DNA from: a virus
DNA: 29,056 bases
Direction: 5' to 3' (one strand)
Virus record (IMG/VR): IMGVR_UViG_3300044997_000835
Coordinates: 1-29,056 of that record
The translations under genes and the position numbers were made by a program. Of this stretch, positions 11,201-28,075 are shown piece after piece (positions within the stretch are counted from its first letter, which is position 1; each line of letters starts with the position of its first letter). A model generated the notes under the pieces. The model saw only the letters and a program-made list of their open reading frames with translations, was not told the origin of the DNA and searched no databases.

Positions 11201-11824
11201 CAAATAAATTTAATGGATTTATATGTTTTAACTAAAAATTATGATTTAGAATATAGAAGATACATAGCAGGAGCAATAGAAAACGAACCATTACCTCCAA
11301 GTAGTGATCAATTGTATATTACCATGAATCCATTTTTAAATCAAATTAAGGCTATGAGTGATGAAATAATTTATCATAGTGTAAAATATAAAGTGTTATT
11401 TGGCTCAATGGCTACTCCAAATCTACGTGCTGTGTTTAAATTAATTAAAAATTCAGAGCAAATTATAAGTGATAATGAAATCAAATCTAGAGTGTTAGCA
11501 GCAATTAATGAATTTTTTTCTATAGAAAATTGGGATTTTGGTGACACTTTCTATTTTAGTGAACTTGTAACATATATTATGAATAGAACAGCGCCTTATC
11601 TAGTCAACATTGTTATTGTACCAAGACAGGTTAATTTATATTTTGGTAGTTTATTTGAAATAAAGAGTGAAAATGATGAAATTTTTATTAACGGGGCTAC
11701 AAGTGATGATATTATGGTTATTGATGCATTAACTGCTAATGAACTTAATGCAGAAGGTGATATAGTAACAAGATCAAATATTTTAAATAAACAAAGTGTA
11801 TCTAGTGGCACAGGTAGTTACTAA
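8267..11824 (+). CDS. gp6: gp6-like baseplate wedge protein, enlarged
   Basis: The first about 110 residues are typical of T4-like gp6: LRRVMIDYLRQNYPEDFNDY, YLALIDMIAFLGQSFAFRVD and ENFLELAERRESILRLARTL. Later blocks include RVSIAFSDGIFGNLPLG and MITAEDYNLSP, the baseplate J/gp6 core. A C-terminal part has LFGSMATPNLRAVFKLIKNS and WDFGDTFYFSELVTYIMNRT. In T4, gp6 dimers form the inner ring of the baseplate that holds the six wedges together. At 1185 residues it is nearly twice T4 gp6 (660 aa). Most extra length is in the middle, with a calcium-loop-like motif (residues 816-827) and a carbohydrate-binding-like module (about 838-888). The start has AAGGA upstream, and the stop overlaps the next ATG by one base. 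Confidence 0.9.
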   Translation: MSATDRQNRLFVAEDWRRIYQSFRNADFQSYDFENLRRVMIDYLRQNYPEDFNDYIESSEYLALIDMIAFLGQSFAFRVDLNARENFLELAERRESILRLARTLSYNAKRNTPASGLLKWQSISTTQTVIDSNGRNLAGQEILWNDPSNNEWFDQFVRIINAAMPITTQFGDPINKAVVYSIPTEQYRIQTTGTTIPVYTFNKIVDGRTMNFEITGTIIKDGEDIVEDPPISGNTMSFIFRDDGKGYASNSNGFFSNFKQGTLQTGTFGITQPSTNEIIDIDATNINNTDIWLYKLDSRGVENEFWVQVPSLESNNVIYNSLDKNIRNIYNVITRVNDRVSIAFSDGIFGNLPLGNFRIFYRVSNGLSYIINPKDMRNVSVEISYFSNSGQSEFLTISMNLPTSVSNSGGTESNEQIKFNAPSSYYTQNRMITAEDYNLSPLTVNQDILKIKTVNRSSSGISRYFDLIDPTGKYSSTNLFSDDGVIYKEEYEEIFKFNYNSRIDIEGIIYNKVLPVLREINLRNFYYDKFGRIKIGSDLNYKWVQITSSTNESTGYFTGEADDIVGYDVTSILRNLEVGANLKFVPPLGKYFISNKGNILEIINENSPNASKYVWAKIVSIANNGTIARLADGTGPIKLTSEIPSNAILEQIIPVWRTNLDNNIIRTMVNLIFSNKPFGLRYDLSEKKWKIIFEQNINRLSTFKIGKAGDTTNQKLDASWLLLFETDGELYTVRSRRLRYIFESDKKIRFYFNKTNKIFDTRSNVIIKDKIKILGVNNKPNQTNSFTYDLEWEITDEFIGADGYTDSKKIEISFNDFNDDGVVDDPDLFDTIVSPPASTWDSSVTYTKNSYVFYANQLFISLVDNNLNFEPKAGQSSKWKVNYGNFVILEKYETLTTQYDYRHSSFLDILIVGSESDVKSSHISDQYYYFTDNETLAKFSMQEGRLIYNLDYKVYLGRNNLKFQYVHSADYNTRIDPGQINLMDLYVLTKNYDLEYRRYIAGAIENEPLPPSSDQLYITMNPFLNQIKAMSDEIIYHSVKYKVLFGSMATPNLRAVFKLIKNSEQIISDNEIKSRVLAAINEFFSIENWDFGDTFYFSELVTYIMNRTAPYLVNIVIVPRQVNLYFGSLFEIKSENDEIFINGATSDDIMVIDALTANELNAEGDIVTRSNILNKQSVSSGTGSY

Positions 11825-14800
11825 TGTCTAACGAAGAATTTCCAGTACCTTTAAATAATAATGAAAAGCGTAAATCTGTAAAATTTTTACCAAGATTTTT
11901 TAGATCTGATGCTAATAAAAAGTTTTTAAGTAGTACAATAGATAATCTTATTCAAAATGGAACAGTTAGACGCATCAATGGTTTTATTGGTAGGCAAAAT
12001 GCTAAAAGCGTCACTAACAATGATGTTTTTATTAAAGAATTGTTAGATGATAGACAAAATTATCAATTAGAACCTGCTTTAGTTGCTGAAGATAATTTAG
12101 GTAATATAACTTTTTTTAAAGATTATATTGATTACATTAATACCATAAATGTTTTAGGTGGTAATTCTATAAATCATGAAAAATTAAATCAACAAGAATT
12201 TTATAGTTTGGAACCTCACATTGATTGGGATAAACTTGTGAATCATTTACAATATTATTGGCTACCTTATGGACCAGATATTGTACCTGTTAGTGGAACC
12301 AAAATTTTAAACACTACAAGTACTTACACAATTACTATAGTAGATGAAGGAGATAATTTTGCTTATTTAATGACACCAAATGGCTTAACAAGAAATCCTA
12401 TTTTAAGTTTATATCGGGGAGAAACTTACAAATTTGATATTAAAACTCCTAATGAACCTTTCAGTATAAAAACTGATAGAGTTAGTGGAAAGTTATTTAG
12501 ATATACTGATGGAGTAGACCAGTTTGCTGTAACGAATGGAACAATAACATTTACTATTCCTTTAGATGCACCTGATGTACTATATTATGTTAGTGAAAAT
12601 AATGTAGATACTAGCGGTATAATTAAAATCTTTGATATTATAGAAAATACCAAAATTAATGTTGAAGAAGAAGTGGCTGGAAAGAAAAATTTTACATTGC
12701 CTAATGGTATAAGTCTTACGAACGGAATGAAAATAAAATTTGTAGGTCAAGTTACACCTAAGGAATATGAAGATCAAGTATTTTATGTAGAAGGTGTAGG
12801 ACAAAATATAAATCTAATCAACGAAAAATATTTAGAAACAAGTGCAAAATATACTGTTAATGTAAATGTTAATTATGATGAAATACCATTTGATAACTTA
12901 GCATTTAATAATGTTAATTACGCGGCACTAGATAAAGATTACATTACAATTAATAGAGCAAGTAGAGATCGTAATCCTTGGAGTAGATACAATAGATGGT
13001 TTCATCAAGACGTCATACAAAAAACTGCTGATATTTTAGGTACACAGCCTATATTTGATCAAAATTTTAGAGCTATTAGACCTATTATAGAATTTAACGC
13101 AAACTTACAACTATTTAATTTTGGAAATTTAAGTAAAAAAAATGTTGATCTTGTAGATAATTTTACAACAGATGTTTTTAGTACAATTAATGGAGCTTTT
13201 GGTTATTATATTGATGGTATTGAATTAGCCAATGGTCATAGAATAATTTTTAATGCAGATACAGATCCGTTAGTAAAAAATAAAATCTTTAAAGTTGAAT
13301 TTAATACTTTACTTGATACGAATACACAATCATATACAAGACGTATAAATTTAGTAGCAGAGGAGGATAGCCAACCAATACAAAACGAATGTGTTCTTGT
13401 GATGTTAGGCGAAAAGTATTCAGGTCAAATGTTCTGGTTTAATGGAAATGATTGGTTATTATCTCAATCAAAAACTAAATTAAATCAACCACCGTTATTT
13501 GATTTATTTGACGAAAACGGAATAAACATTACTGATCCCTTATATTATGAAGGTTCAACATTTCTTGGAAATAAAATATTTTCCTATAAAATTAATAATG
13601 GGCGAGTTGATAAGGAATTAGGATTTGGCATAACATATAAAAATATTAATAATATTGGTGATATTCTTTTTGATTTTAATTTATTAAATGAAAATTTTAT
13701 CTATAAATTAAATCAAAATATTTTAGAAGAAACAACTGATAATAAATTTTTAAAATTATATAATTATGCAGGTGATTCAAAATTAGTAAACGGTTGGGTA
13801 AAAAATGAATTAACTAATACACAACCTATAATTAGAATTTTTAAAAATATAACTAATGAATCTAATCCTAATCGACAAAATATTTTAACAAATAATTTCC
13901 CAATAGATGTATATGATGATATTGAGCAATTAGATGATTTAGTTGTTAAAGTATATGTAAATGGAAAAAGAATTGATAAAAGTAATTTTATCATAGTCAA
14001 ACGCATTAATTATGATTATAAAACTGTTGTTTTTTATAATGATTTAAATGAAACAGATATTTTAACTTTAAAATGCTATTCAAAGCAAAATAAAAATTCT
14101 AATGGGTATTATGAAATACCTATATGTTTACAGAATAATCCAGCAAATAATAATATTAGAAACTTTACTCTTGGTGAAATTATTGATCATGTTGATAGTA
14201 TAGTTGATAATTTATCTAATTTTAAAGGTATATTTCCTGGTTCTAGTAATTTAAGGGATATAGCTAATTTAAGTTCTTATGGAACAAAATTTGTACAACA
14301 TAGTGGTAGTTTAAATTTCGCATTATATCATTTAACTAATCAAAATGCTAACATCCTTTTTGCAATAGAGAAAGCTCGAGACGATTATGGTAAATTTAAA
14401 CGTGCATTTTTGTATAATTGCAAAAATATAAATTACGATAACGATATAAAAGAAACTGTTAATGAAGTTTTATTTAAGGTAAATCAAGGTAAATCTAAAC
14501 AAGGCTCTTATTATTTTAGCGATATGTTGGGATACGGGGCATCTAAGAAATTTGAATTTACAGTAAAAGATGCAAAAACAACCAAGTATCCTTTAGCACA
14601 ACCCTTTAGTTTAAAGCAATTGACTGCCCGTTGTATTTACATATATTTAAATGGCATACAATTATTACACGAAAAAGATTATACATTCACAGATGACGGA
14701 TTTATAAACATTACAAAGCAAAAAGAAGAAAATGATATTATAAGTGTAATTGAGTATGAAACTACAGATGGATGTTTTATACCACCAACACCCACAAGTT

Positions 14801-17800
14801 TGGGATTATACCCTAAGTATGAACCAAAAAAATATTTAGATAGTACATTAATAGTTCCACAAAATGTAATACAAGGTCATGACGGTAGTATAATTCTTGC
14901 TTTTGATGATTTTAGAGATGATCTTATATTAGAGTTGGAATATAGAATATTTAATAATATTAAAATAGATTATGATACAAAAATATTTGACATTTATAAT
15001 TTTATACCTGGTTCAAATAGAAAAACAGTGTACGATAGAGAGGAATTTAATAGAATATTAGCACCTAACTTTTTTAAATGGACAACATTAATTGACACAG
15101 ATTTTAGCAAAAATTTATTATTTCTCACTAACAATCCTTTTACCTATAATTATAGTGATGTTGCAAGCATAAATGGAGATAAACTTCCAGGTTTTTGGAG
15201 GGGGATTTATACTTGGTATTTTGATACTGATCGTATACATATTTGTCCTTGGGAAAGTCTTGGATTTAGCATCATGCCTAAATGGTGGGAGCAAGTATAT
15301 GGACCTGCCCCATATACCAAAGATAATTACATTTTATGGAATGATTTACGTAATGGAGTAATAAGAGAACCAAATAAACCATTAAAAATCAATCAAAAAT
15401 TTGTAAAACCTATATTAGAAAATATTCCTGTTAATCAATATGGCAAACTTATAGATCCTGTTGAATCTAATTTAGCAAGTGGCATAATAACCACAAATTC
15501 AAATAAACCATATATTTTTGGAGATCAAAGTCCAATAGAAAATACATGGCGTAGAAGTAGTTATTATCCTTTTAGTTTAATCAAAACTATAATTTTAATT
15601 AATCCAAATCTTGCTTTTTCTCTTTTATTTGACAGATCTAGAATAGTTAGAAATCAAGCTAATCAATTAGTATATAAAGAAACTGGATTGAGGTTAAAAT
15701 TAAAAGACATTTTAACAACAAGTATTTATAATGACAACACAAGAGTACAGACTAGCGGATTAATCAATTATGTAATAGATTATTTGATTAACGATAATCT
15801 TAATAGTATAAATGAATATAGATATAATCTAAAAAATTTAACTAATAAGCTAAGTTATAGATTAGGAGGATTTAGCAGTAAAGAAAAATTTAACTTAATT
15901 TTAGACAGCAGGAATGCAAAAGCAAGTTCAGGTTTATTTGTACCTAAAGAAAACTATAAAATTTTTCTAAATAGCAGTAGTCCTATTAAAAAATTATTTT
16001 ATAGTGGAGTAATAATTACAAAATTTTTAACCAAATATGGGTTAGGATATGAAATAAAGGGTTATAGTCAAACTGAACCTTATTTTTATTATTATCCTTG
16101 GGATAAGCCTGGATATAATATAAATGTAGGTGGTATTAGCGAAAGTTTTATAAATTGGGATCGAGGACAAAGATATATTGCAGGGAAAATAGTAAAAATT
16201 GAAAAAGATTATTACAGAGTAAAACTAGCCCATACTAGTTCTAATAATCCAAATTTTGATTTACTACAAAAGCTACCTGAATTACCAATAATAGGTGGCA
16301 GAAATGCTAATTTAAGAAGTTTATTCACTAAAATTCCTAAAATTCTTAATTATGGATCTCTTTTAAGTAGTATTCAAGAAGTTGTAGATTTTTTACAAGG
16401 ATATAGTGAATATTTAAAAGATCAAGGGTTTGAATTTGATGAATTTAATCAAACTTTAAAAACAGTTACTAATTGGGAAACAAGTATAAGAGAATTTTTA
16501 TTTTGGACTACGCAAAATTGGAGTTCAGGGGCAGACAGTTATGTTGAATGGAATATTAATACTTATTATAAAATCGATCAAGTAGTTTATTATAATGGTG
16601 AATTTTATAGAAGTATAAAAGAACACACTACTAAAAACTTTTTTGATAGAAATTCCTATAATAAACTAGATAATCTTAATACGGATGGAGCGGCAGCAAT
16701 AAGTTTAAGTCCAGCAGCTCTAAAACTTACCTTAAAACTTAATTACAGTGTAGTTGATGATTTAACAGAAACAAATAATACATATGAAATTTTTTCAGCA
16801 GATGGTGTCAAATATGATCCTCGGGGTTTAAATTATCAAAGAGAAGATGACAAATTCAGTTTATATCCTAAAAATGACTTAGGTATATATGGAGCAAGTA
16901 TCTATCTTGTGCAAAAAGAGCATGTATTAACTATAGACAATGTCAGTCAATTTAGTGATGTAATTTACAATTTAGAAACTGGTTATAGACAAGAAAAAAT
17001 TAAAACTACTGGTTATAAAACTATAAATTGGAACGGAAGTTTTGATGCCCCTGGGTTTCTATATGATCAAGCTAAAATTGAAGAATGGATTCCTTGGACT
17101 GATTATAATTTAGGCGATATAGTCAAGTATAAAGAATACTATTATAGTGCAAATAGTAATATACCAGGAGTAGAAAAATTTGATAATATTCAATGGATAA
17201 AATTAGAAGGAAAACCAGAATCTAAATTGTTACCAAACTGGGATTACAAAGCATTACAATTCACTGATTTTTATGACTTAGATAGTGATAATTTTGATAT
17301 TAATCAACAGCGTATAGCACAACATTTTATTGGCTATCAAAAGAGACAGTATTTAGAAAATATTATTAAAAACGATGTAAGCGAATTTAAATTTTATCAG
17401 GGTATGATCACTGAAAAAGGCAGTGCTAATAGTCTTAATAAACTATTTGATGTTTTAAGTGCAACAAATCAAGACAGTATAGATTTTATAGAAGAATGGG
17501 CAGTTCGTGTAGGTGAGTATGGAGCAAGTGATGCTTTTGAAGAAATAGAATTTGTATTAGATGAATCTAAATTTAGAATAGAGCCTCAAGCTTTTGAATT
17601 ATTATCTATTATAAAGAGTGAATTAACAGATTATGTAATAAGAAAAACAAAAAATGATATCTATTTAAGACCAACAAATTATAGTGACGATATTTGGCCT
17701 ATAAATCAAAATTACAGACCATTTTTAAAGACTCCTGGTTTTTGTAGATTAGATCAGGTGAAATATGCATTAGATAAAAAAGATGATATTCTGTCATTAG

Positions 17801-20800
17801 ATATTAAAACTTTAGAATCTGGGGATTATATTTGGTGTGCATTTGAAGATAAAATTAATGATTTTGGAGATGATTGGAGTATATATAGGTTAAATTATTT
17901 AGACTTAACAGTTAAAAATATTACATATACTAATCAGATTTTAATTGTAACATTTAACATAGATCCAAAAATATTTGTTGGAGACATTGTAGGGTTTAAA
18001 AGCGTAGAAAATTTTAATAAATTACTAAAAGTTACACAAGTTGACAATAAAACTATAAAAATACAAGGACCTATAACAGATATTATAAATGTTGGCAATT
18101 TAAATTTAAATTTAGTTAGAACTTATAAAATATCTGATTATAGATATGAAAATATAGATAGCTTAAATGTTCCTAAATATTTAAATAAAATTACAAACAA
18201 AGGCATAGATTTGGGATCCTATGGAGAATTAGTTTGGTTTAATAATCAAGGTAAGCAAGTTATATGGCAAAATTTACCTGTTTATGGAAAAACAGAAATA
18301 GTAGATAGTATATTAACTAATGAGAGTAAGCTAGGACAATGTGTTTGTATTAATGAAAGTTCAACAATATTACTAGTAAGTTCTGCTAATGAAGTTAGAA
18401 TCTATATAAAAAATAATCTAACTTGGATTAAAACACTAGTAATACAGCCCCCAAATGAGACTGGTATTACTATAACCAATTTTGGTAAATCATTAGCCAT
18501 AGCAGAAAATAACAATCTTATAGCTATTGGATATACTCGTAATGGAAACGGAGCTGTAAATGTTTATAAATTAGACAAAAATATTAATTTAAATTTAAGA
18601 CAGACTATATTTAATCCAGAATATATTTATACTAATTTACCAATTACAGATCAATTTTTTGGATACAAAATAAAATTTAGTAAAAATTTAAATAGTTTAA
18701 GTTTGTTTATCAGTAGTACTAATGGTGTAAGTATATCAGGTAAAATATACATCTATAATAGCACTATTGAAGCAATAGATTCAAGTACAGTAATAAGTCC
18801 TTTTACTATTTTTGATAGATTAGAGCCTAATTCTTGTGAGGAAGAACCCTTTGCATATGATTATGATGTAAACAAAAATGGTTCAATTCTAGTTTTAGGT
18901 GCCTGCTTGAATGATGGTGGTAAAGTATATGTTTATGAACGAAAAATTGATTATTTTTATAGACAGCAAATTATAGATTTACCAGGAAAAGAAGAAAGAT
19001 TTGGATTTGCTTTAGCCTTAAATACCAGTGGTGAATTATTAGCTGTGTCAAGTACTTATGAAACTATAGATTATGTAAATCAAGGTAGAATTAGAATATT
19101 TAAAACTCAAAACACAGAAGATGATTCAACAGTCCCACCAGTAAATTACAACGTAAATCAAATTATAGATAATCGTCGTGCTGAAGCAGATGGAATTCTT
19201 GGTGAACAATATGGTTATAAATTAAAATTCGCTAATGATAGCAAAACTTTAGTAATTTTTAGCAAGTATGGGGATAGCTATCAAGAACAAATTACAGGTG
19301 AAGATTCAACAAAGATTAATAAAGATTCAGGAAGAGTTGATGTTTATGATCGTTATATTACAAAATATATATTTTCTGAATCTATACCTGCTTATAGTAA
19401 AACTGAAGAATATGGATTAGGATTTGATATTGGGAATAATTGTATTGTAGTTGGAGCGCCAGCTGCTATATCAAATGACAAAACAACTGGTAAAGTTTAT
19501 ATACATAATAAAGAAAATAATATTTTTAGTTGGAGAAAGTATTTAGAAGAACAGCCTAAAATTGATATAACTGTATTCAAGAAGATATTTATATATAATA
19601 AAAAAAGTAGTAATTTGCTCTATTATTTAGATATTATAGATCCTGTTCAAGGAAAAATAGCAGGTGAGGCAGATCAAGAAATCAAATATAAAACTTATTA
19701 CGATCCTGCTATATATAACTATCAATCTACAGGTAATGACATCAAAGTAACCATAGATGACGGTATGAATTGGTTAGATAAACAGGTTGGAATGCTATGG
19801 TGGGATTTAAGACGTGCTAAATTCATAGATAGCACTATGGGTAATGTTACATTTAGAAACTTTAGTTGGAATGCATTATATCCTACAGCTAGTATAGATA
19901 TATGTGAATGGGTTGAATCAAAATATACCCCAGAACAATGGGATACTTTATCAGGAACTGAAGAAGGTTATAGTCGAGGTATAGATGGTAAAACTTTATA
20001 TGGAAATAAGGTTTATAGTATAAAGAAAAAATTTGATACTATTAGTAAAACATTTAGTAGTTTATATTATTATTGGATAAAAAATAAAACTACGATTCCC
20101 TATGCTAATGGTAGAAAAATAAGTGCTATTAATTGCAAAGCACAAATTGAAGATCCAAAAAATTATGGTGTAAAATTTATACAATTTTTAAGTCCTAATA
20201 GTTTTGGATTAAGTAATGTTAAAAATCAGTTAGTAGATAAAGATATTAATTTAAATATTCAATACTGGACAGTCCCTGAAAAAGAAAAATTAATTATCCA
20301 TAATGAATGGAAAATTATAAGTGAAAATAACAATACAGATATACCTATTGAGATAGAAAGGAAATGGATTGACAGTTTAACAGGTATTGACGAAAATGGC
20401 TTTATAATTCCAGATTTAAATTTAAGTCCTAAACAAAGATATGGCATAAAATTTAAACCAAGACAAAGTATGTTTGTTAATAGAATAGAAGCTGTTAAAG
20501 AACTTGTAGACAGGTTTAATTCCCAAATAAAAAATATTCAAATTGATAATATTGATCTAAGTGATTTTTTAAGAAAAGATCCGCTTCCTAGTATAATATC
20601 AGGTGAATATGATTTTGTAGTTGATGTAGAAGAAGAACTAAAATTTATAACCTTGCCTATAGAATCTTATAAACAAGCACTTGTTAAACCTATAATACAG
20701 TATGGTAAAATAATTGATGTTGAATTTATAAATCGTGGTGTAGGTTATAATAATGCTCCTTCTATAAAAGTAACAGGTAGTGGACGGAATGCTGTTTTAA

Positions 20801-23800
20801 AAACCCAAATAACTAATGGTGCAGTTAGCAACATTATTATTGATAATGGTGGTCAAGGGTATGATATTAATAATACAATTATATCCATTAGACCAGCAAC
20901 TGTTTTGGTAAAAACTAACGAGTTAGGCCTTTGGTCTATTTTTGCATTTAATCCAAACAGTAGAACTTGGACTAGAATAAAAAGTCAAGAATATGACGTT
21001 ACAAATTTTTGGTATTACATAGATTGGTATGCTCCAGGATATAATCAATTTACTAAAAGTGATTATCTAGTCAAGGGTATTTATGAATTATTTACTTTGA
21101 AAAGCAGTATAGGAAATATTGTAAAAGTCAACAATCCTGGTGGGGATTGGTTACTTCTAGAAAAATATAGTAATAATGTTGATATTGATTATACTAAAAC
21201 GTATAAAGTAGTAGGAAAACAAAATGGAAGTATTCAATTAAGTTCAAAATTTTATGATTTTGATAAAAGTAAATTAGGATTTGCTGGTTCATTATTTGAT
21301 AATAGTCCGTATGATGCAATAGGAAGTGTAGAATTAAGAATAATATTGAAAAGTTTAAAAAATAAAGTACTAATTGATGATCGTAGACAAATCTATATAG
21401 ATTTATTTTTTGTAACTATTAGATACATTCTATCAGAACAAATGTTTGTTGATTGGATTTTTAAAACAAGTTTCATAAAAGCATTGCATAATGTAGGCAA
21501 GTTATATCAAAAAATTAACTTTAATAATGATAATTTACCAGATTTTGAAAGTTATATCAAAGAAGTAAAACCATTTAGAAGTAAAATTAGAGAATTTACC
21601 AGCATTTATTCAAATGTAGAAGATAGTCAAAGCTTAGTAACAGATTTTGATCTTCCTACATATATAGAAAATTTTAAAATACTAACCTTAAACACCATAT
21701 CTAAAAATAATATTGTTGAAGTTAATAATAAAACAATTATAGACCAAAGTCCTTGGAAATTTTGGTATAACAATTTAGGTTTTCAACTTATTGATATTGT
21801 TATTAATGATCCTGGAAGTGGTTATTTACAATTACCTATAGTACGATTTGAAGGTAAATGTATCCGACCAGCAAAAGTTAAACCATTTATAGTAAAAGGA
21901 AGTCTTGTCAAAATTGAGATTTTAGATGCAGGATTTGGATATTTTACCCCTCCTAAAATAATTATTGATAGCAATATTAGTAAAGATGGTAGAATAGCAC
22001 AGGCCTATGCTACTATAGGAAATAACTTAATTAGATCAAACAAAATTTCATTAAAATTTGATAGGTATTTGAAAGAATCTGTTGATGATATTAGGGATAT
22101 TAATTTTACAGAAACTTTTAAAGGTAACGGAGTAAAAACTACGTTCTTATTAAAATATAAACCTGATTTTAAAACTGATACTACAAGTATCAAAATTAAT
22201 AATCAAGCTCAAATTGTAGGAACTTACAGTATAAATCCTAAAATTAGTTTAGAAAAAGGATATAAAGTTCATTATGCAGAACTAGAATTCTTAGATGCAC
22301 CCGAAGATGAATCTATTATAACTATCAATTATGTAAAAGATTTTATACATTTAAATGCTTTAGATCGAATTCATCATTTTTATTCACCAAGAGCTGGTAT
22401 GTTAGGTAAAGATTTTGCACAACTCATGTCAGGTATAGACTATGGTGGTGTTAATATTATGGGTATAGGATTTGAAAAACCTAATACTTGGGATGGACTA
22501 TATAATTGGGGCGAAAAAATCTGGGATGCAAAGGATCTTACTGATGATGAATTATATGACACAATTATAGATGGAGGAAATTTAAAGCAGAATAGTGCCT
22601 ATAGAACTGCAAGTGGTTTATTAGCTGATGATATTATAATTGATGGTGATGGTTTTATCACTGCCAACACCAGTCCAGCACCAGAAGAAATGTTACCAGG
22701 TCACGTTGTTGACACATTAGCAATATCTGTATTTGAAAGGTCTTTGACTACAAGTTCTAAAATAATTTCCAATAATTATGTAAGTGATGGAGTAACAACC
22801 ACCTTTAAAATTAATCAATATCCAAATAATAAAAATGCTATTATAGTTAAAAAAGATAATATTATACAAATTCCTAATGTTGACTATACTTTTAACTACG
22901 ACAAACTTGAAGTGACTATTAATTCACCTGTATTACAAGGACATATTATAAGCATAACCAGTTTAGGTTTTAATGGCGAAAATCTTTTAATCACTGATGT
23001 ACAAGTTGTTGCCACTGCTACTAATGAAATTTATACTAATTTAGATTGGCAAGAAAATATTAAGGCTTACACTTTAGTTTCAGGTGAAGTAGCTAATCAT
23101 GAATTATTTAAAATTGAAGGTGAAACTCTACTAAAAAATAAGATAGGTATAAGATTTCCATTAGAACTTAAAGTAGGCCAAGTAGTAAATTTTAGCATAT
23201 TTTTAGGTAGTGAAATAAACCAAAGTGTAGTTAGTAAAGAAACTTTAAAAACAGACGGAGTATCAACTAAATTTTATCTTAATAATCCAATAGGTAAAAA
23301 AATACCATTAGATCCTAACACTTTAGTTAGAATAGATAACACAATATTAAACTCAATAGACAGTTTTAAATATATATTAACTAACAATCAATTACAATAT
23401 GATATTCCAGCTGGTAAAGCAGATATTGACTTTTATTCATTAAATGATTATGTAATTTATATTGACGGTATTAAAACAGAATTAGGTATAGGATATAATT
23501 TAGATTTAGTAAATTCAAAACTTAATATTAAAGCTAATTATTATAAGAATAATGCTGAAGTAATTGTTACTAATACTAAAGAAGCAGATTATTTTATTGA
23601 TAATGATAATTATGGTAGATATATTTTATTTAAAAACGTATATCCTTTAGATACTGAAATTGAAATTACTGCAATGTTTAATCATGATATTTTAGATTTA
23701 GAAAGAAAATATTATGTAATTGAACCCAAACTTAATAATTTTGTTGACAGCATATATTACTTAAATCTTATTCAAATTAGTGCTGGCATATTTACATTTG

Positions 23801-24753
23801 AAAGAGAAGTTTTAGATACTAGTTACGTTTGGCTAACAAAAAATAAAAAATTATTAACACCTAATATAGATTACATCCTATTAGAAGATAAAAAAAGTGT
23901 TAAAATGGCAGGTCAACCTAAACCAACTGATAAGTTTAGTATTATCACTTTTAGTGGAAATGTAATAAGAAATCCTGTAAATTTTATGAAATTTAAGGAT
24001 ATGCTTAATAGATTTCATTATAAAAGATTGCATAAAAATAGAACTACTAGATTAGAACGAGATTTAAATTATGGAGATAAGGAAATCTTTGTAGAAAATC
24101 CTGACAGAATCAATACCGCACCTGGTGTATTGTACGTAAATGGTGAGCGTATTGAATACTATTTCAAGATTGGCAGTAAATTAGGTCAATTGCGTAGAGG
24201 TACTTATGGAACAGGAGTTCCTAATACACACAAAAAGTTTACTGAAGTGCATGACATAGGTGAATCAGAAACAATTCCTTACAAGGATGAGGACATTATC
24301 TTTCGTATATCAGATGTTGATTTTAATGATTCAACTAAGACTATCAGTATTCCTTTTCTTGCCAATAAGAATAATATTGAAGTTTTTGTGGGAACACGTA
24401 GACTTAGAAAAAACAGTTATACAATACACAATAAAGATGTGCATCCAGAAAGCCCAGAAGGCGATGAAGAACAGCCAGCAGAATTTACAACTGATGGATC
24501 AAATCATGGCACAGAAACTAATAGAATAGGTTATATTATACTAACTGAAGCTCCACCAATAAATGTACCTATCACAGTTATAATTAAACGATTAACTTTA
24601 TGGAGTGATGCTAATAAAGGTCTATCAGAATCCACCAACCAAGTGGCATATTTCTTAAAATATAATGTAGAAGAAATTACAGGTACTGAATTAACTCTTG
24701 ATAGCGGATCATATAGTACAGATACAGATAATGTAAACATGGATGAGGAATAA
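11824..24753 (+). CDS. giant multidomain baseplate wedge-like protein (gp7 position)
   Basis: One uninterrupted frame encodes 4309 residues. Its place directly after gp6, with a TAATG overlap, is that of T4 gp7 (1032 aa), the wedge scaffold, but homology could not be confirmed. Recognisable parts, by residue, are: a cupredoxin-like domain (about 166-275); an aromatic block with LPGFWRGIYTWYF and MPKWWEQVYGPAPYT (about 1121-1166); two carbohydrate-binding-like modules (about 1576-1620 and 1755-1790); and a seven-repeat integrin/FG-GAP-like propeller (about 2170-2565). These are followed by two G-x-GY beta-modules (about 2965-3022 and 3323-3382); repeated GVxTxF beta-modules (about 3433-4045); and a C-terminal block with QLRRGTYGTGVPNTHKK (from about 4074). 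No catalytic motif, signal peptide or membrane segment was recognised. Large proteins of this design occur in marine T4-like phages. It is probably a wedge with outward-facing binding arms. Confidence 0.8.
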   Translation: MSNEEFPVPLNNNEKRKSVKFLPRFFRSDANKKFLSSTIDNLIQNGTVRRINGFIGRQNAKSVTNNDVFIKELLDDRQNYQLEPALVAEDNLGNITFFKDYIDYINTINVLGGNSINHEKLNQQEFYSLEPHIDWDKLVNHLQYYWLPYGPDIVPVSGTKILNTTSTYTITIVDEGDNFAYLMTPNGLTRNPILSLYRGETYKFDIKTPNEPFSIKTDRVSGKLFRYTDGVDQFAVTNGTITFTIPLDAPDVLYYVSENNVDTSGIIKIFDIIENTKINVEEEVAGKKNFTLPNGISLTNGMKIKFVGQVTPKEYEDQVFYVEGVGQNINLINEKYLETSAKYTVNVNVNYDEIPFDNLAFNNVNYAALDKDYITINRASRDRNPWSRYNRWFHQDVIQKTADILGTQPIFDQNFRAIRPIIEFNANLQLFNFGNLSKKNVDLVDNFTTDVFSTINGAFGYYIDGIELANGHRIIFNADTDPLVKNKIFKVEFNTLLDTNTQSYTRRINLVAEEDSQPIQNECVLVMLGEKYSGQMFWFNGNDWLLSQSKTKLNQPPLFDLFDENGINITDPLYYEGSTFLGNKIFSYKINNGRVDKELGFGITYKNINNIGDILFDFNLLNENFIYKLNQNILEETTDNKFLKLYNYAGDSKLVNGWVKNELTNTQPIIRIFKNITNESNPNRQNILTNNFPIDVYDDIEQLDDLVVKVYVNGKRIDKSNFIIVKRINYDYKTVVFYNDLNETDILTLKCYSKQNKNSNGYYEIPICLQNNPANNNIRNFTLGEIIDHVDSIVDNLSNFKGIFPGSSNLRDIANLSSYGTKFVQHSGSLNFALYHLTNQNANILFAIEKARDDYGKFKRAFLYNCKNINYDNDIKETVNEVLFKVNQGKSKQGSYYFSDMLGYGASKKFEFTVKDAKTTKYPLAQPFSLKQLTARCIYIYLNGIQLLHEKDYTFTDDGFINITKQKEENDIISVIEYETTDGCFIPPTPTSLGLYPKYEPKKYLDSTLIVPQNVIQGHDGSIILAFDDFRDDLILELEYRIFNNIKIDYDTKIFDIYNFIPGSNRKTVYDREEFNRILAPNFFKWTTLIDTDFSKNLLFLTNNPFTYNYSDVASINGDKLPGFWRGIYTWYFDTDRIHICPWESLGFSIMPKWWEQVYGPAPYTKDNYILWNDLRNGVIREPNKPLKINQKFVKPILENIPVNQYGKLIDPVESNLASGIITTNSNKPYIFGDQSPIENTWRRSSYYPFSLIKTIILINPNLAFSLLFDRSRIVRNQANQLVYKETGLRLKLKDILTTSIYNDNTRVQTSGLINYVIDYLINDNLNSINEYRYNLKNLTNKLSYRLGGFSSKEKFNLILDSRNAKASSGLFVPKENYKIFLNSSSPIKKLFYSGVIITKFLTKYGLGYEIKGYSQTEPYFYYYPWDKPGYNINVGGISESFINWDRGQRYIAGKIVKIEKDYYRVKLAHTSSNNPNFDLLQKLPELPIIGGRNANLRSLFTKIPKILNYGSLLSSIQEVVDFLQGYSEYLKDQGFEFDEFNQTLKTVTNWETSIREFLFWTTQNWSSGADSYVEWNINTYYKIDQVVYYNGEFYRSIKEHTTKNFFDRNSYNKLDNLNTDGAAAISLSPAALKLTLKLNYSVVDDLTETNNTYEIFSADGVKYDPRGLNYQREDDKFSLYPKNDLGIYGASIYLVQKEHVLTIDNVSQFSDVIYNLETGYRQEKIKTTGYKTINWNGSFDAPGFLYDQAKIEEWIPWTDYNLGDIVKYKEYYYSANSNIPGVEKFDNIQWIKLEGKPESKLLPNWDYKALQFTDFYDLDSDNFDINQQRIAQHFIGYQKRQYLENIIKNDVSEFKFYQGMITEKGSANSLNKLFDVLSATNQDSIDFIEEWAVRVGEYGASDAFEEIEFVLDESKFRIEPQAFELLSIIKSELTDYVIRKTKNDIYLRPTNYSDDIWPINQNYRPFLKTPGFCRLDQVKYALDKKDDILSLDIKTLESGDYIWCAFEDKINDFGDDWSIYRLNYLDLTVKNITYTNQILIVTFNIDPKIFVGDIVGFKSVENFNKLLKVTQVDNKTIKIQGPITDIINVGNLNLNLVRTYKISDYRYENIDSLNVPKYLNKITNKGIDLGSYGELVWFNNQGKQVIWQNLPVYGKTEIVDSILTNESKLGQCVCINESSTILLVSSANEVRIYIKNNLTWIKTLVIQPPNETGITITNFGKSLAIAENNNLIAIGYTRNGNGAVNVYKLDKNINLNLRQTIFNPEYIYTNLPITDQFFGYKIKFSKNLNSLSLFISSTNGVSISGKIYIYNSTIEAIDSSTVISPFTIFDRLEPNSCEEEPFAYDYDVNKNGSILVLGACLNDGGKVYVYERKIDYFYRQQIIDLPGKEERFGFALALNTSGELLAVSSTYETIDYVNQGRIRIFKTQNTEDDSTVPPVNYNVNQIIDNRRAEADGILGEQYGYKLKFANDSKTLVIFSKYGDSYQEQITGEDSTKINKDSGRVDVYDRYITKYIFSESIPAYSKTEEYGLGFDIGNNCIVVGAPAAISNDKTTGKVYIHNKENNIFSWRKYLEEQPKIDITVFKKIFIYNKKSSNLLYYLDIIDPVQGKIAGEADQEIKYKTYYDPAIYNYQSTGNDIKVTIDDGMNWLDKQVGMLWWDLRRAKFIDSTMGNVTFRNFSWNALYPTASIDICEWVESKYTPEQWDTLSGTEEGYSRGIDGKTLYGNKVYSIKKKFDTISKTFSSLYYYWIKNKTTIPYANGRKISAINCKAQIEDPKNYGVKFIQFLSPNSFGLSNVKNQLVDKDINLNIQYWTVPEKEKLIIHNEWKIISENNNTDIPIEIERKWIDSLTGIDENGFIIPDLNLSPKQRYGIKFKPRQSMFVNRIEAVKELVDRFNSQIKNIQIDNIDLSDFLRKDPLPSIISGEYDFVVDVEEELKFITLPIESYKQALVKPIIQYGKIIDVEFINRGVGYNNAPSIKVTGSGRNAVLKTQITNGAVSNIIIDNGGQGYDINNTIISIRPATVLVKTNELGLWSIFAFNPNSRTWTRIKSQEYDVTNFWYYIDWYAPGYNQFTKSDYLVKGIYELFTLKSSIGNIVKVNNPGGDWLLLEKYSNNVDIDYTKTYKVVGKQNGSIQLSSKFYDFDKSKLGFAGSLFDNSPYDAIGSVELRIILKSLKNKVLIDDRRQIYIDLFFVTIRYILSEQMFVDWIFKTSFIKALHNVGKLYQKINFNNDNLPDFESYIKEVKPFRSKIREFTSIYSNVEDSQSLVTDFDLPTYIENFKILTLNTISKNNIVEVNNKTIIDQSPWKFWYNNLGFQLIDIVINDPGSGYLQLPIVRFEGKCIRPAKVKPFIVKGSLVKIEILDAGFGYFTPPKIIIDSNISKDGRIAQAYATIGNNLIRSNKISLKFDRYLKESVDDIRDINFTETFKGNGVKTTFLLKYKPDFKTDTTSIKINNQAQIVGTYSINPKISLEKGYKVHYAELEFLDAPEDESIITINYVKDFIHLNALDRIHHFYSPRAGMLGKDFAQLMSGIDYGGVNIMGIGFEKPNTWDGLYNWGEKIWDAKDLTDDELYDTIIDGGNLKQNSAYRTASGLLADDIIIDGDGFITANTSPAPEEMLPGHVVDTLAISVFERSLTTSSKIISNNYVSDGVTTTFKINQYPNNKNAIIVKKDNIIQIPNVDYTFNYDKLEVTINSPVLQGHIISITSLGFNGENLLITDVQVVATATNEIYTNLDWQENIKAYTLVSGEVANHELFKIEGETLLKNKIGIRFPLELKVGQVVNFSIFLGSEINQSVVSKETLKTDGVSTKFYLNNPIGKKIPLDPNTLVRIDNTILNSIDSFKYILTNNQLQYDIPAGKADIDFYSLNDYVIYIDGIKTELGIGYNLDLVNSKLNIKANYYKNNAEVIVTNTKEADYFIDNDNYGRYILFKNVYPLDTEIEITAMFNHDILDLERKYYVIEPKLNNFVDSIYYLNLIQISAGIFTFEREVLDTSYVWLTKNKKLLTPNIDYILLEDKKSVKMAGQPKPTDKFSIITFSGNVIRNPVNFMKFKDMLNRFHYKRLHKNRTTRLERDLNYGDKEIFVENPDRINTAPGVLYVNGERIEYYFKIGSKLGQLRRGTYGTGVPNTHKKFTEVHDIGESETIPYKDEDIIFRISDVDFNDSTKTISIPFLANKNNIEVFVGTRRLRKNSYTIHNKDVHPESPEGDEEQPAEFTTDGSNHGTETNRIGYIILTEAPPINVPITVIIKRLTLWSDANKGLSESTNQVAYFLKYNVEEITGTELTLDSGSYSTDTDNVNMDEE
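12320..12645 (+). other. cupredoxin-like domain within the giant protein
   Basis: Residues about 166-275 show the phage cupredoxin-like pattern NPILSLYRGETYKFDI, then PFSIKT, ITFTIPLDAPDVLYYVS and SGIIKIFDI. Copper-binding His/Cys/Met residues expected of true cupredoxins are absent, so the fold is probably structural. Confidence 0.6.
18331..19515 (+). other. seven-repeat integrin/FG-GAP-like beta-propeller within the giant protein
   Basis: Seven repeats begin with an aromatic or Leu residue followed by Gly (Ala in one) at residues L2170, F2220, F2279, F2343, F2393, Y2463 and Y2530. Each continues with alternating hydrophobics, a hydrophobic strand (LLVSS, LIAIGY, LSLFISS, ILVLGA, LLAVSS, LVIFSK, IVVGAP) and a G-x-V-x-V-Y type strand (VRIYIK, VNVYKL, KIYIYN, KVYVYE, RIRIFK, RVDVYD, KVYIHN). 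Spacing of 50-70 residues and the count of seven match the integrin-alpha type propeller. The fold is inferred from pattern only. Confidence 0.72.
20717..21970 (+). other. two G-x-GY beta-modules in the giant protein
   Basis: Two copies are seen. The first (20717-20890) has INRGVGYNNAPSIKVTGSG, then GAVSNIIIDNGGQGY. The second (about 21790-21967) has VINDPGSGYLQLPIVRFEG, then GSLVKIEILDAGFGYFTPP. Each is a pair of G-x-GY turns followed by P-x-I strands. Such repeats are common in large marine phage structural proteins; their function is unknown to me. Confidence 0.55.
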
Positions 24754-24756
24754 ACA

Positions 24757-25824
24757 ATGGCAAAACAAATAATCAACGTAGGTACCAAACCTAATGATGG
24801 TACTGGAGACACCTTAAGACGAGCAGCCATTAAAATTAATGATAACTTCACAGAGGTTTATACCACCATACAAAATATAAGCCTATTATCTGGACCACAA
24901 GGTATACAAGGACGTCAAGGTACACAAGGAACTAATGGTACACAAGGACGTCAAGGTACACAAGGTACATTTGGTGTACAAGGTATACAGGGTCTACAAG
25001 GTGCAGGAACACAAGGAGCTAATGGCTATATAGGTATAGATGGCAATCAAGGTGTACAAGGAATACAAGGGATAGAAGGTAGTAAAGGAACGGCTACCCA
25101 AGGTATTCAAGGTATTCAAGGAACTGGCGGCACAAATGGGGTTCAAGGACAGCAAGGAAATTTAGGACTACAGGGCTCTCAAGGACAGCAAGGAAATTTA
25201 GGTATACAAGGTATACAGGGACAACAAGGTACACAAGGTATACAGGGACAACAAGGATTACAAGGTTATGAGGGTACTCAAGGTTTTTATGGCGACACAG
25301 GACCAATAGGACAACAAGGTATACAGGGTCGTCAAGGTACTCAGGCTGCTCAAGGAATCCCAGGTGCCAATGGTATACAAGGTATACAAGGATTTCAGGG
25401 TTTAAATGGATCTCAAGGAACACAAGGCTCTATTGGCACTGGTTTTATAGGAATTCGTACAACTGTAAGTTCTAACACTGGGTTAATTAATGATAGTGCT
25501 AGAGTAAATTTAGAAATGACTGGGTTTAAAGGATATGTCTTATATAAAATTCAAACAAGTCATGCTGCATGGGTAAGACTTTATATAAATTCAGCAAGTC
25601 GAAGTGCCGACGTTGGACGAACTCAAGGCACTGATCCAAGTTATGATGCAGGCGTGATAACTGAAATTATAACCACAGGATCACAAACTATCAAAATGAC
25701 ACCTGCTGTTTTTGGTTTTAACGATGAAACTATTCCAACAACGAATATACCAATAAGTGTAACAAATTTAAGTGGTGCAACTAATAATATTACAGTTTCC
25801 CTAACTTTATTGCAGGCAGAATAA
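24757..25824 (+). CDS. collagen-like virion/tail fibre protein
   Basis: The 355-residue protein has three parts. Residues 1-45 (MAKQIINVGTKPNDGTGDTL, then KINDNFTEVYTTI) match an anchoring domain common at the start of marine T4-like phage fibre and structural proteins. Residues 46 to about 228 are about 56 Gly-X-Y triplets, mostly G-x-Q (GTQ, GIQ, GQQ), with three short breaks (GA, GTATQ, GTQAAQ). The rest is a beta-rich C-terminal head with GYVLYKIQTSHAAWVRLYIN and a final strand TVSLTLLQAE. The likely structure is a trimeric collagen-like rod with a terminal head domain. GAGGA lies about 5 bases before the giant gene's stop and serves this start. The stop overlaps the protease start (TAATG), so the two proteins are probably made together. 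Where it sits on the virion is unknown. Confidence 0.85.
   Translation: MAKQIINVGTKPNDGTGDTLRRAAIKINDNFTEVYTTIQNISLLSGPQGIQGRQGTQGTNGTQGRQGTQGTFGVQGIQGLQGAGTQGANGYIGIDGNQGVQGIQGIEGSKGTATQGIQGIQGTGGTNGVQGQQGNLGLQGSQGQQGNLGIQGIQGQQGTQGIQGQQGLQGYEGTQGFYGDTGPIGQQGIQGRQGTQAAQGIPGANGIQGIQGFQGLNGSQGTQGSIGTGFIGIRTTVSSNTGLINDSARVNLEMTGFKGYVLYKIQTSHAAWVRLYINSASRSADVGRTQGTDPSYDAGVITEIITTGSQTIKMTPAVFGFNDETIPTTNIPISVTNLSGATNNITVSLTLLQAE
24892..25440 (+). repeat. 9-base-periodic collagen-coding repeat tract
   Basis: A degenerate 9-base repeat of the form GGT-ATA-CAA / GGT-ACA-CAA / GGA-CAA-CAA encodes the Gly-X-Gln triplets. Near-identical longer blocks recur, for example the segment encoding GQQGNLG..QG at about 25147 and 25183. 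Phase breaks occur near 25000, 25090 and 25340. Such a tract can expand or contract by slippage or recombination. Confidence 0.85.
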
Positions 25825-27419
25825 TGAGTGATTTAAAAGAATATATAGTTACGTTAATCGATTCTAATAATTTAGATAGTTTCTACGAGGACATGGAAAC
25901 ACCTAGTTGTAATCTTTACATACCAAATAGAATAGTAGAATGTGTTAATCGTAGGCCTATAAGTCGAAATACTCATTATATGTTAACTGAACAGGAAGCT
26001 GAACAAATTAAAAATGATTCAAGAGTATTAGATTGCCAACAATTAGCTCAAAATCTTGGAATTGAAGTTAGACCTTGTTGGACTCAAACAAGTACTTCTT
26101 GGGACAAATCTTTCTCAACCAATAATACAATGAAAAATTGGGCTCTACTTAGATGTACTGAAGGTTCCACTCGTGCTAATTGGGGGTTTGATGGAGCCAA
26201 TTATAGTCAATCTGCAACAGTTGGATCTAGCCTAGAAGGTAAAAATGTGGATGTTGTTGTAGTGGATGGTCTTGCCAATCCTAATCATCCAGAATTTGCA
26301 TTAAATAGCGATGGTACAGGTGGTTCTAGGGTAGTCCAATATAATTGGTATCAGCATAGATCAGGTGGTGGAACACATATCTACGGAAATTATACAGGAA
26401 CTGGTGCTGAAAGTAATAATAATCATGGTTGTCATGTTGCTGGAACTATAGCAGGAAATACTCAAGGTTGGGCTAGAAGTGCTAACATTTACAATATTAG
26501 TCCTTATGGTGATGATGGAAATAATCATACAGCAGAAGAAATATTTGATTTTATAAGAGCTTTTCATCTTAATAAACCTATAAATCCTAATACAGGTAGA
26601 AAAAACCCAACAATAATAAACAATAGTTGGGGATACTTTTTTCTTCCAGTCCCTATAAGTCAAATAACCAGTGTAAATTATAGGGGAATTAATTATAATG
26701 GTCCATTTACAGCTGAAACATTACAGAGTTTAGGTCTTATTGTTAGTAGTTCATCTCTTCCTGGTGTTGGCTATAGATATATAGCGTTGGATACAGATAT
26801 TGCAGATGCCATTAATGACGGTATTATTATAGTTGGTGCAGCTGGCAATTCTAGCTATAAAATTGACATTCCTACAGGTCAAGATTATAATAATCGTTTC
26901 GTTTCTAATGGAAATAGTTATTATTATAATAGAGGAGCAACGCCAACATCATCAAGTACAAACATTTGCGTAGGAGGTATATATAATTCTGTGCAAGAAA
27001 GAAAAAGGACAGATAGTAATTGCGGACCTAGAATAGACATATATGCACCAGGCACAGCTATAATTAGCAGTGTCAATATTGCTGGCGTGACAGATTCAAG
27101 AAATAGTAATTTTTGGTTACAGAAATTAGGCGGCACTAGCATGGCCAGCCCACAAGTTTGTGGAGTGCTTGCTTGTACTTTAGAACTATATCCAGATATG
27201 AATCAAAATGATTGTATAAATTATTTAAATTCTACATCAACAAAAAATCAAATTTATGACACTGGTGGTACTGATACATTAGGACTTCAGCAATCGGTAA
27301 ATAGATATTTGTATCTTTATAAAGAAAGACCTAACATTGGGTCAACTTGGCCAAAACTTAATTATAAACCAAGACCAACTAATGGTAGAATGTTTCCAAG
27401 AGTAAAGGTAAAAAGGTAA
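25824..27419 (+). CDS. subtilisin-family serine protease (peptidase S8) with N-terminal I9-like prodomain
   Basis: The 531-residue protein has the complete subtilase catalytic set: D148 in VDVVVVDGL, H201 in NNHGCHVAGTIAG, oxyanion N342 in IIVGAAGNSS and nucleophile S439 in GGTSMASPQVCG. NNSWG (266-270) and IDIYAPG (404-410) are further family landmarks. Residues 1 to about 72 (starting SDLKEYIVTLIDSNNL, with MLTEQEAEQIKNDSRVL) look like an inhibitor_I9-type prodomain, so autoprocessing is likely. There is no signal peptide. It has eleven cysteines, including C203 within the His motif. It starts at the stop of the collagen-like gene (TAATG) inside the late structural operon. This suggests a virion component, or a maturation enzyme acting on fibres or host surface proteins. 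The substrate is unknown. Confidence 0.93.
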   Translation: MSDLKEYIVTLIDSNNLDSFYEDMETPSCNLYIPNRIVECVNRRPISRNTHYMLTEQEAEQIKNDSRVLDCQQLAQNLGIEVRPCWTQTSTSWDKSFSTNNTMKNWALLRCTEGSTRANWGFDGANYSQSATVGSSLEGKNVDVVVVDGLANPNHPEFALNSDGTGGSRVVQYNWYQHRSGGGTHIYGNYTGTGAESNNNHGCHVAGTIAGNTQGWARSANIYNISPYGDDGNNHTAEEIFDFIRAFHLNKPINPNTGRKNPTIINNSWGYFFLPVPISQITSVNYRGINYNGPFTAETLQSLGLIVSSSSLPGVGYRYIALDTDIADAINDGIIIVGAAGNSSYKIDIPTGQDYNNRFVSNGNSYYYNRGATPTSSSTNICVGGIYNSVQERKRTDSNCGPRIDIYAPGTAIISSVNIAGVTDSRNSNFWLQKLGGTSMASPQVCGVLACTLELYPDMNQNDCINYLNSTSTKNQIYDTGGTDTLGLQQSVNRYLYLYKERPNIGSTWPKLNYKPRPTNGRMFPRVKVKR

Positions 27420-27463: not shown

Positions 27464-28075
27464 ATGCAAAACAAAGATTTTGGTGGCATACATTTAGAAG
27501 GTCACATTAGAATTTGGGATCCAAATACCCGAGAAATCTATATCGAAAAGCGAAATGCTATTCATTATGAAAATATGAGTGTAGCTTTAGCGAACAGTAT
27601 AGCTAACTCTGGCAGCGGAATTATTAATGAAATGGCTTTTGGTAACGGTGGAACTGCTGTAGACCCTACAGGTATCATTACATATCTAACACCAAACACT
27701 ACAGGGATAAATGCAAGTCTATATAATCAGACATACTATAAAATTGTAGATGACACAAGTAGTGCTAATAATAATCCTCTGAGAAATTATATTGAAACAC
27801 GGCACGTAACTGGCACAAACTATACTGATGTTTTTATAACTTGTCTGTTAGATTACGGTGAACCTAGCGGCCAAGAAGCTTTTGATAATACTAACGACAA
27901 TAATAGTTTGTATACATTTGATGAATTAGGTCTATTAGCTAATAATGAGTTAGGACAAAAACGTCTTTTAACTCATGTTCTTTTCCATCCTGTGCAAAAA
28001 AGTTTGAATAGATTGATTCAAATTGATTATACAGTAAGAATACAAAGTTTAACTGGACTTATGGGGAATAGTTAA
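27464..28075 (+). CDS. virion structural protein of unknown position (marine T4-like phage type)
   Basis: This is a complete 203-residue protein. It opens with beta-rich segments GHIRIWDPNTREIYIEKRNA and then IHYENMSVALANSIANSG, followed by INEMAFGNGGTAVDPTGII. It ends with TFDELGLLAN, LLTHVLFHPVQKSLNRLIQI and DYTVRIQS. I recall similar proteins labelled virion structural protein in marine T4-like phages, where the final DYTVRIQ strand is common. No enzyme motif, signal peptide or membrane segment is visible. It is the first gene after a late-promoter box and overlaps the next start by one base (TAATG), so the two are probably one late operon. A tail or baseplate accessory role is inferred from context only. 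Confidence 0.65.
   Translation: MQNKDFGGIHLEGHIRIWDPNTREIYIEKRNAIHYENMSVALANSIANSGSGIINEMAFGNGGTAVDPTGIITYLTPNTTGINASLYNQTYYKIVDDTSSANNNPLRNYIETRHVTGTNYTDVFITCLLDYGEPSGQEAFDNTNDNNSLYTFDELGLLANNELGQKRLLTHVLFHPVQKSLNRLIQIDYTVRIQSLTGLMGNS

Follow-up and report, generated by a model that had tools for sequence, protein, structure and literature searches.

A subtilase encoded directly after a phage fiber gene: a conserved gene pair and a candidate exchangeable protease of the fiber tip

Introduction

The S16-type adhesin gp38 and the Mu protein Tfa are separately encoded directly downstream of the fiber gene and bind the C-terminal end of the fiber (PMC7289586). Here we analyze a 29,056-nucleotide (nt) stretch of viral DNA, IMG/VR record IMGVR_UViG_3300044997_000835 (hereafter the window, which is the whole of that viral fragment), in which a fiber gene is followed by a gene for a subtilase. 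The arrangement resembles gp37-gp38 of Salmonella phage S16 and Mu Tfa in that the downstream gene directly adjoins the fiber gene. It differs from both in that the partner is a proteinase K-like enzyme with a prodomain-like N-terminal region, the fiber ends in a domain that we call ct1, and attachment is proposed to occur through a short C-terminal tag. The protease gave no match to gp38 in Pfam, PHROGs, or NCBIfam, and it is therefore not a gp38-family member; as a working analogy, the S16-type fiber with its gp38 is the nearest.

Phages are known to bear sugar-cutting enzymes on their spikes. Like these virion-associated depolymerases (tailspike enzymes), the window protease would be an enzyme on a fiber or spike that removes a surface barrier; the known examples, however, degrade polysaccharides and as a rule belong to the spike polypeptide itself, whereas the window protease is encoded apart from the fiber. 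With proteinase K and aqualysin I it shares the modeled fold, the catalytic residues, and the position of a prodomain-like N-terminal region, but unlike them it has no signal peptide, is unusually conserved in that region, ends in a tag, and is encoded with a phage fiber. Peptidase_S74 and the tailspike intramolecular chaperones also link a fiber C-terminus with proteolysis; S74 cuts itself off in cis, whereas here the proteolytic component is an S8 enzyme in a polypeptide of its own and ct1 shows no features of a protease. No published phage-fiber subtilase was found in the literature searched.

Results

The fiber and subtilase genes form a conserved pair

The two genes occupy the following positions (coordinates throughout are those of the window).

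24757..25824, plus strand: fiber gene (355 amino acids, aa)
25824..27419, plus strand: subtilase gene (531 aa), PHROG phrog_9158
25822..25826, plus strand: stop/start overlap TAATG, read from the sequence

The fiber stop codon TAA (25822-25824) and the protease start codon ATG (25824-25826) share one base. Both open reading frames (ORFs) and their overlap lie where an earlier note on this DNA had placed them. A ct1-ended gene was found directly upstream in 124 of 138 scored subtilase ORFs, and 5 further ORFs were preceded by a second conserved C-terminal type, ct2 (P-SSM2, AG-345-E02, S-SCSM1, S-T4, and Sf-CH8). After removal of subtilases that were >80% identical, 93 ct1-subtilase pairs were left, and because all 93 were spaced within -20 to +8 nt, the pairing is not due to chance. 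The commonest spacing was 1 nt (52 pairs), and the -4/-1 overlap pattern occurred in 19. The PHROG family of the subtilase spans at least several hundred viral contigs. When ct1 was sampled from the viral collection (alignment A4), a subtilase followed in 78 of 78 cases, but the seeds were all subtilase-linked and this result was not used as independent evidence. The earlier note had named non-conservation of the pair as what would refute its proposal of a fiber-protease device; the pair is kept. We conclude that the fiber-subtilase pair is a genuine, strongly conserved module to which no role had been assigned so far.

Subtilases paired with ct1 carry a C-terminal tag

Near its end, the window subtilase contains a short peptide that recurs in its relatives.

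27372..27401, plus strand: C-terminal tag RPTNGRMFPR, the proposed docking peptide (family form RPx[ST]Gxx[YFW]PR)

The tag was present in 131 of 143 ct1-paired subtilases, either at the very end or shortly behind the catalytic domain; the 12 exceptions were mostly near-variants, for example KPTTGTIYPR, or fragments. None of the 8 truly unpaired subtilases possessed it (0/10 as counted, two of these being fiber ORFs misflagged as subtilases); the unpaired sequences are few and partly from one clade, and the Fisher test applied to the comparison ignores relatedness. Among 71 dereplicated tails, 67 contained the tag, compared to at most 4 of 71 shuffled tails. A search for the strict motif near the C-terminus of the 1823 ORFs of all fetched loci recovered only subtilases (164) and 5 small proteins, of which four stand directly after p2, a partner protein described below, and one is in the siphovirus PSS2.

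The codon pattern of the tag yielded 10 matches in 21 phage records, each of them C-terminal in a subtilase or in a tagged protein of a ct1-p2 cluster, and it was absent from all five phages without ct1 among these records; the reversed control gave one match. The pattern was matched in 9 of the 16 ct1 phages, the search being insensitive because tag variants escape it. The second match in S-SCSM1 ends a "tail fiber protein" that is located after another p2-like gene. In S-CAM1, a diverged subtilase with the tag follows ct1.

An unrelated protein can take the place of the protease

In the cyanophages S-BM3, Sf-CH1b, ACG-2014i, S-SCSM1, and AG-345-F15, a ct1 fiber is followed by a member of an unrelated family, p2, and p2 also follows additional ct1 fibers in S-H9-1 and AG-345-P14. 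No enzyme domain was detectable in p2. The presence of p2 at the place of the protease indicates that ct1 does not need the protease. At all 7 p2 loci, p2 is immediately followed by a gene for a small protein (77-120 aa) whose C-terminus is the tag or closely resembles it (RPGTGQLYPR, RPATGQMYPR, RRPSSGLLYPR, RRPRGILYPR, and others).

Cupredoxin-like ends occur in the subtilases of loci L009-L012, and p2 proteins contain a related stretch; at L007:6989-9913, one polypeptide combines the subtilase with an alpha/beta-hydrolase-like region and a plastocyanin-like domain. Just upstream of the S-BM3 ct1-p2 cluster lies a very large protein annotated peptidase S8 (L055:1-1409, S-BM3 135315-143261), and perhaps the protease function has there moved into a giant fusion.

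The subtilase retains an intact catalytic center and a conserved prodomain-like region

Two parts of the protease were distinguished.

25824..26078, plus strand: prodomain-like region (protease residues 1-85), from structural alignment and secondary structure
26079..27323, plus strand: proteinase K-like catalytic domain, with D148 at 26265-26267, H201 at 26424-26426, N342 at 26847-26849, and S439 at 27138-27140

The protease is a clear member of phrog_9158 (5e-109), a family without assigned function whose GenBank names include "hypothetical protein," "subtilisin-like serine protease," "peptidase," and "baseplate wedge subunit." Pfam Peptidase_S8 (PF00082) matched it with E 3.5e-27 (95.9 bits against a cut-off of 21.8) and matched 59 of 59 relatives. 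The AlphaFold2 model had a mean predicted local distance difference test score (pLDDT) of 89.5, and its catalytic domain superimposed on proteinase K-type enzymes with Z 34-36 and a root-mean-square deviation (rmsd) of ∼2.2 over ∼275 residues; the best match was 5wsl (Z 36.1, rmsd 2.2 over 276 residues), and proteinase K itself gave Z 34. The modeled fold thus is that expected of a family S8 subtilase of the proteinase K type.

All four catalytic residues that the earlier note had read as intact, which make up the Asp-His-Ser triad and the oxyanion Asn, are encoded at the places given above. In ∼210 homologues, wherever the positions could be scored, H was found in 208/208, N in 197/197, and S in 193/193, and the catalytic Asp was D in 205 and E in 6, with no other replacement. 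This invariance or near-invariance points to purifying selection on catalysis.

Residue 1 of the mature proteinase K-type enzymes aligns at about residue 86 of the model, so residues 1-85 occupy the prodomain position. Matches of Inhibitor_I9 to this region were weak (3 of 59 relatives, best E 0.015), and a profile search of the PDB gave no match to it. Conservation of the region is similar to that of the catalytic domain (majority fraction 0.68 vs. 0.60). Neither a signal peptide nor a membrane segment was seen in the protease sequence; the earlier note had also found no signal peptide, and we correct it in that residues 1-85 form a prodomain-like domain. No relatives were found in plasmids. 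A scan of GTDB genome contigs by six short exact patterns, able to pick up close relatives only, found none.

Several relatives depart from the architecture of the window protease. Four near-identical contigs (L046-L049) encode protease ORFs of 862 aa with an insert of ∼310-330 residues between the catalytic Asp and His motifs; an intein was considered as an explanation for it. Two tandem subtilase genes follow one ct1 fiber at L020:4652-9008, both with an RPxSGxxxPR end and intact triads. Very long C-terminal extensions and the lack of a tag characterize the subtilases encoded at L038:56-7033 (2325 aa) and L042:6986-14467 (2493 aa); the latter has no ct1 upstream, and locus L038 begins at a contig edge.

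A fused relative is labeled as a virion protein

Mass spectrometry of purified S-SCSM1 virions identified 45 proteins (PMC9602691). The GenBank record of this phage labels as "virion protein" fiber 227, subtilase-lectin fusion 228, ct1 fiber 231, and the p2 partner 232, and we took virion detection from these record labels rather than from the supplementary mass spectrometry list. As a check, ORF213 and ORF214, the two non-structural proteins named in the S-SCSM1 text within the stretch compared, bear the same label. Protein 228 possesses an intact triad along with a LamG/concanavalin-type domain, and other subtilase relatives are fused to cupredoxin-like or alpha/beta-hydrolase-like modules. 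Such fusions are as expected for a surface-acting part.

The constant element of the fiber partner is ct1

Three segments were recognized in the window fiber.

24757..24888, plus strand: T4 gp9/gp10-type baseplate anchor motif (fiber residues 1-44), from Pfam T4_gp9_10_N and phrog_677 (residues 1-44)
24892..25440, plus strand: collagen-like GXQ-rich shaft with short interruptions (fiber residues 46-228), from Pfam Collagen and repeat parsing
25450..25821, plus strand: conserved C-terminal beta-sandwich domain ct1 (fiber residues 232-355), from alignment A3, AlphaFold2, and its C-terminal position across the family

The T4_gp9_10_N match (E 3.4e-06, 27.7 bits against a cut-off of 25) spans residues 3-39 only, and Pfam Collagen matched the shaft with E 8e-26 (90 bits against a cut-off of 27.2). 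If folded as a collagen triple helix, the shaft would be ∼50 nm long. ct1 comprises ∼120 residues and is predicted to form a compact beta-sandwich (AlphaFold2 pLDDT 97.4). Comparison with the PDB returned only jelly-roll-type matches of Z ≤7.6, with no structure ahead of the rest (viral capsids and the Tk-SP jelly-roll were among them), and we claim no fold relation because these matches are weak and tied. A similarity of ct1 to the beta-jelly-roll domains of some subtilases (furin and Tk-SP) falls inside the noise of the tied matches.

Across the 93 dereplicated pairs, the fiber partners range from ∼140 to >1300 aa and have many different N-termini, with a gp9/gp10-like motif in about a third. 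A long GXX run was found in just 18 of the 93, and collagen was rejected as a conserved feature of the partner. The earlier description of a collagen-like fiber thus holds for the window fiber and does not extend to partner fibers generally; the fixed element is ct1. Diverged ct1 domains also occur in fibers of the unrelated phages S-CRES1 (L057), S-CBS2 (L061), and Tunturi_5 (L063) and of a Nodularia phage (L064), where no subtilase, p2, or recognizable tag adjoins.

The pair is set between genes of a jumbo T4-like phage

The window has the layout of a T4-like late region. A gp55-type sigma factor gene and genes that we take, from recognized sequence features, to be of the gp47 and gp46 types are on the minus strand; on the plus strand, gp53-, gp5-, gp25-, and gp6-like baseplate genes are followed by a giant gene, the fiber gene, the subtilase gene, and two further structural-type genes. 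The immediate flanks of the cassette are as follows.

11824..24753, plus strand: giant baseplate/virion structural gene (4309 aa), left flank; homologues are annotated "virion structural protein," "baseplate wedge subunit," or "baseplate wedge initiator"
27464..28075, plus strand: conserved downstream structural gene (phrog_11259), right flank; it stands directly after the giant gene in Phosso

The gp6-like protein is nearest to those of Agrobacterium phage Atu_ph07 (33.9%), Sinorhizobium phage Phosso, Salicola SCTP-2, and the GAP32/RaK2 group. The giant protein and the product of 27464-28075 (54.5% to Phosso) likewise have their nearest relatives in jumbo T4-like phages. Giant homologues of like size are found in S-CREM1, S-H38, Atu_ph07, and Phosso. 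By these affinities, the window is a 29-kb part of the genome of a jumbo T4-like phage that belongs to the Atu_ph07/RaK2 lineage. The earlier note had looked to marine phages, a placement that the backbone genes do not bear out, being nearest to those of jumbo phages of Agrobacterium, Sinorhizobium, Salicola, and enterobacteria. Among isolated phages, the window subtilase has matches only in T4-like phages of Synechococcus and Prochlorococcus, besides two marine virus records. Since the relatives of the backbone differ from those of the subtilase, the cassette is common to distant T4-like lineages.

In Phosso, the giant gene is separated by 29 nt from the homologue of window gene 27464-28075, with neither fiber nor protease between. 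The same gap in Atu_ph07 (L223:7106-7944, Atu_ph07 127105-127943) is occupied by a 237-aa GIY-YIG endonuclease-like protein and by a 42-aa ORF that looks like the N-terminal part of the downstream gene product; this is what a homing endonuclease might leave behind after inserting into a split or duplicated copy of that gene. The order giant gene, fiber, subtilase, downstream gene was found in 27 subtilase loci including the window; at 157 of 185 subtilase loci neither flank was present within the fetched range. Judged by these gene orders, the cassette is an insertable unit, dispensable for the baseplate, on which the giant protein does not depend.

Discussion

We consider it probable, with moderate confidence, that the pair is an exchangeable fiber-tip protease cassette that is docked via ct1 and the tag and acts on host surface proteins. 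The proposal starts from what the sequences show: fiber and subtilase genes are paired, the catalytic residues are invariant, ct1 and the tag go together, and another protein can replace the protease at the same place. The fiber would be anchored in the baseplate by its gp9/gp10-like N-terminus and extend as a collagen-like trimeric shaft with ct1 at the far end. The subtilase would be made in step with it through the overlapping or adjacent reading frames, fold with the help of its N-terminal prodomain, and dock on the ct1 end, probably by the C-terminal tag RPxxGxx[YFW]PR, which is found along with ct1 in most cases; this location at the tip and the ct1-tag contact are what we infer from the association. 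It would stay in the mature virion and, if proteolytically active, could cut host surface proteins at adsorption so that the fiber binds, or the baseplate reaches, the cell envelope. Of the roles raised in the earlier note (maturation of the fiber or giant protein, riding on the virion to cut host surface proteins, and action at lysis), the second is the best fit: the S-SCSM1 fused relative and its fiber are labeled as virion proteins, and the location and host-surface substrate of the window protease itself are presumptive.

The subtilase might instead bind ct1 during assembly and trim the fiber, for example by removing or clipping ct1 or another segment; this would parallel the self-cleaving C-terminal chaperone domains of some tailspikes, except that the cut would be made in trans. 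Its strict adjacency to the fiber C-terminal domain fits such a role, as does the stop/start overlap or 1-nt gap, which favors matched, simultaneous synthesis, and C-terminal chaperone domains that are removed autoproteolytically are known in phage fibers (PMC7289586). Fiber maturation thus remains a rival, although we judge it unlikely: ct1 fibers occur with the non-protease partner p2 at the same place, the S-SCSM1 relative is labeled a virion protein and is fused to lectin domains, and an enzyme needed only transiently for processing would not be expected to be fused to surface-type modules. The occurrence of p2, which lacks a detectable enzyme domain, would also suit a tip adhesin or fiber chaperone that merely uses the subtilase fold, with proteolysis secondary or absent. 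Gp38-type adhesins and tail fiber assembly proteins typically are encoded just downstream of the fiber, and some stay bound to the tip (PMC7289586). The invariance of H, N, and S in all scored members, with D nearly so, is unexpected if activity is irrelevant, and makes this explanation rather improbable.

Placement in a late structural operon and an active-type protease are what one would expect of a lysis or egress protease, or of an enzyme set free late in infection to attack debris or the host envelope. We find this very unlikely given the lack of a visible signal peptide or membrane segment, the tight linkage to fiber domains and the tag rather than to lysis genes, and the virion label of the S-SCSM1 relative. 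Processing of the giant baseplate protein, suggested by the position of the giant gene directly upstream in the window and 26 related contigs, is exceedingly improbable: the cassette is missing next to the giant gene in Phosso and Atu_ph07, most subtilase loci lack such a giant gene in the fetched range, and the bare junction in Phosso already disfavors maturation of the giant protein by the protease. Several points weigh against the fiber-tip cassette that we favor. In a mirror-tree comparison, subtilase and ct1 divergences were uncorrelated (Spearman 0.06; 96 of 500 permutations reached this value). Synteny and the tag are thus the only signs that the two evolve together, and either the interface takes up little of each protein or lineage-to-lineage exchange happens often. 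The virion evidence comes from one distant fused relative, whose fiber end is of the ct2 type, by way of record labels. Finally, conservation of the prodomain could mean that it stays bound as an inhibitor.

A broader proposal, which we hold more tentatively and with slightly less than even confidence, is that ct1 and the RPxxGxx[YFW]PR tag are a general plug-and-socket for swapping fiber-end parts across very different T4-like lineages, and even in siphovirus PSS2. Proteases, and p2 with its small tagged companion, would be mounted on one standard end, and the protease versions would be the first family of virion proteases on fibers that open the host surface. The ct1-tag association predicts that a ten-residue tag is enough to mount a protein on the fiber end. 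If the fiber-tip protease cassette is real, it would give a function to phrog_9158, and so widespread a fiber-borne protease would point to host surface proteins (S-layers, outer-membrane proteins, pili, and adhesins) as a barrier to, or a trigger of, infection by these phages.

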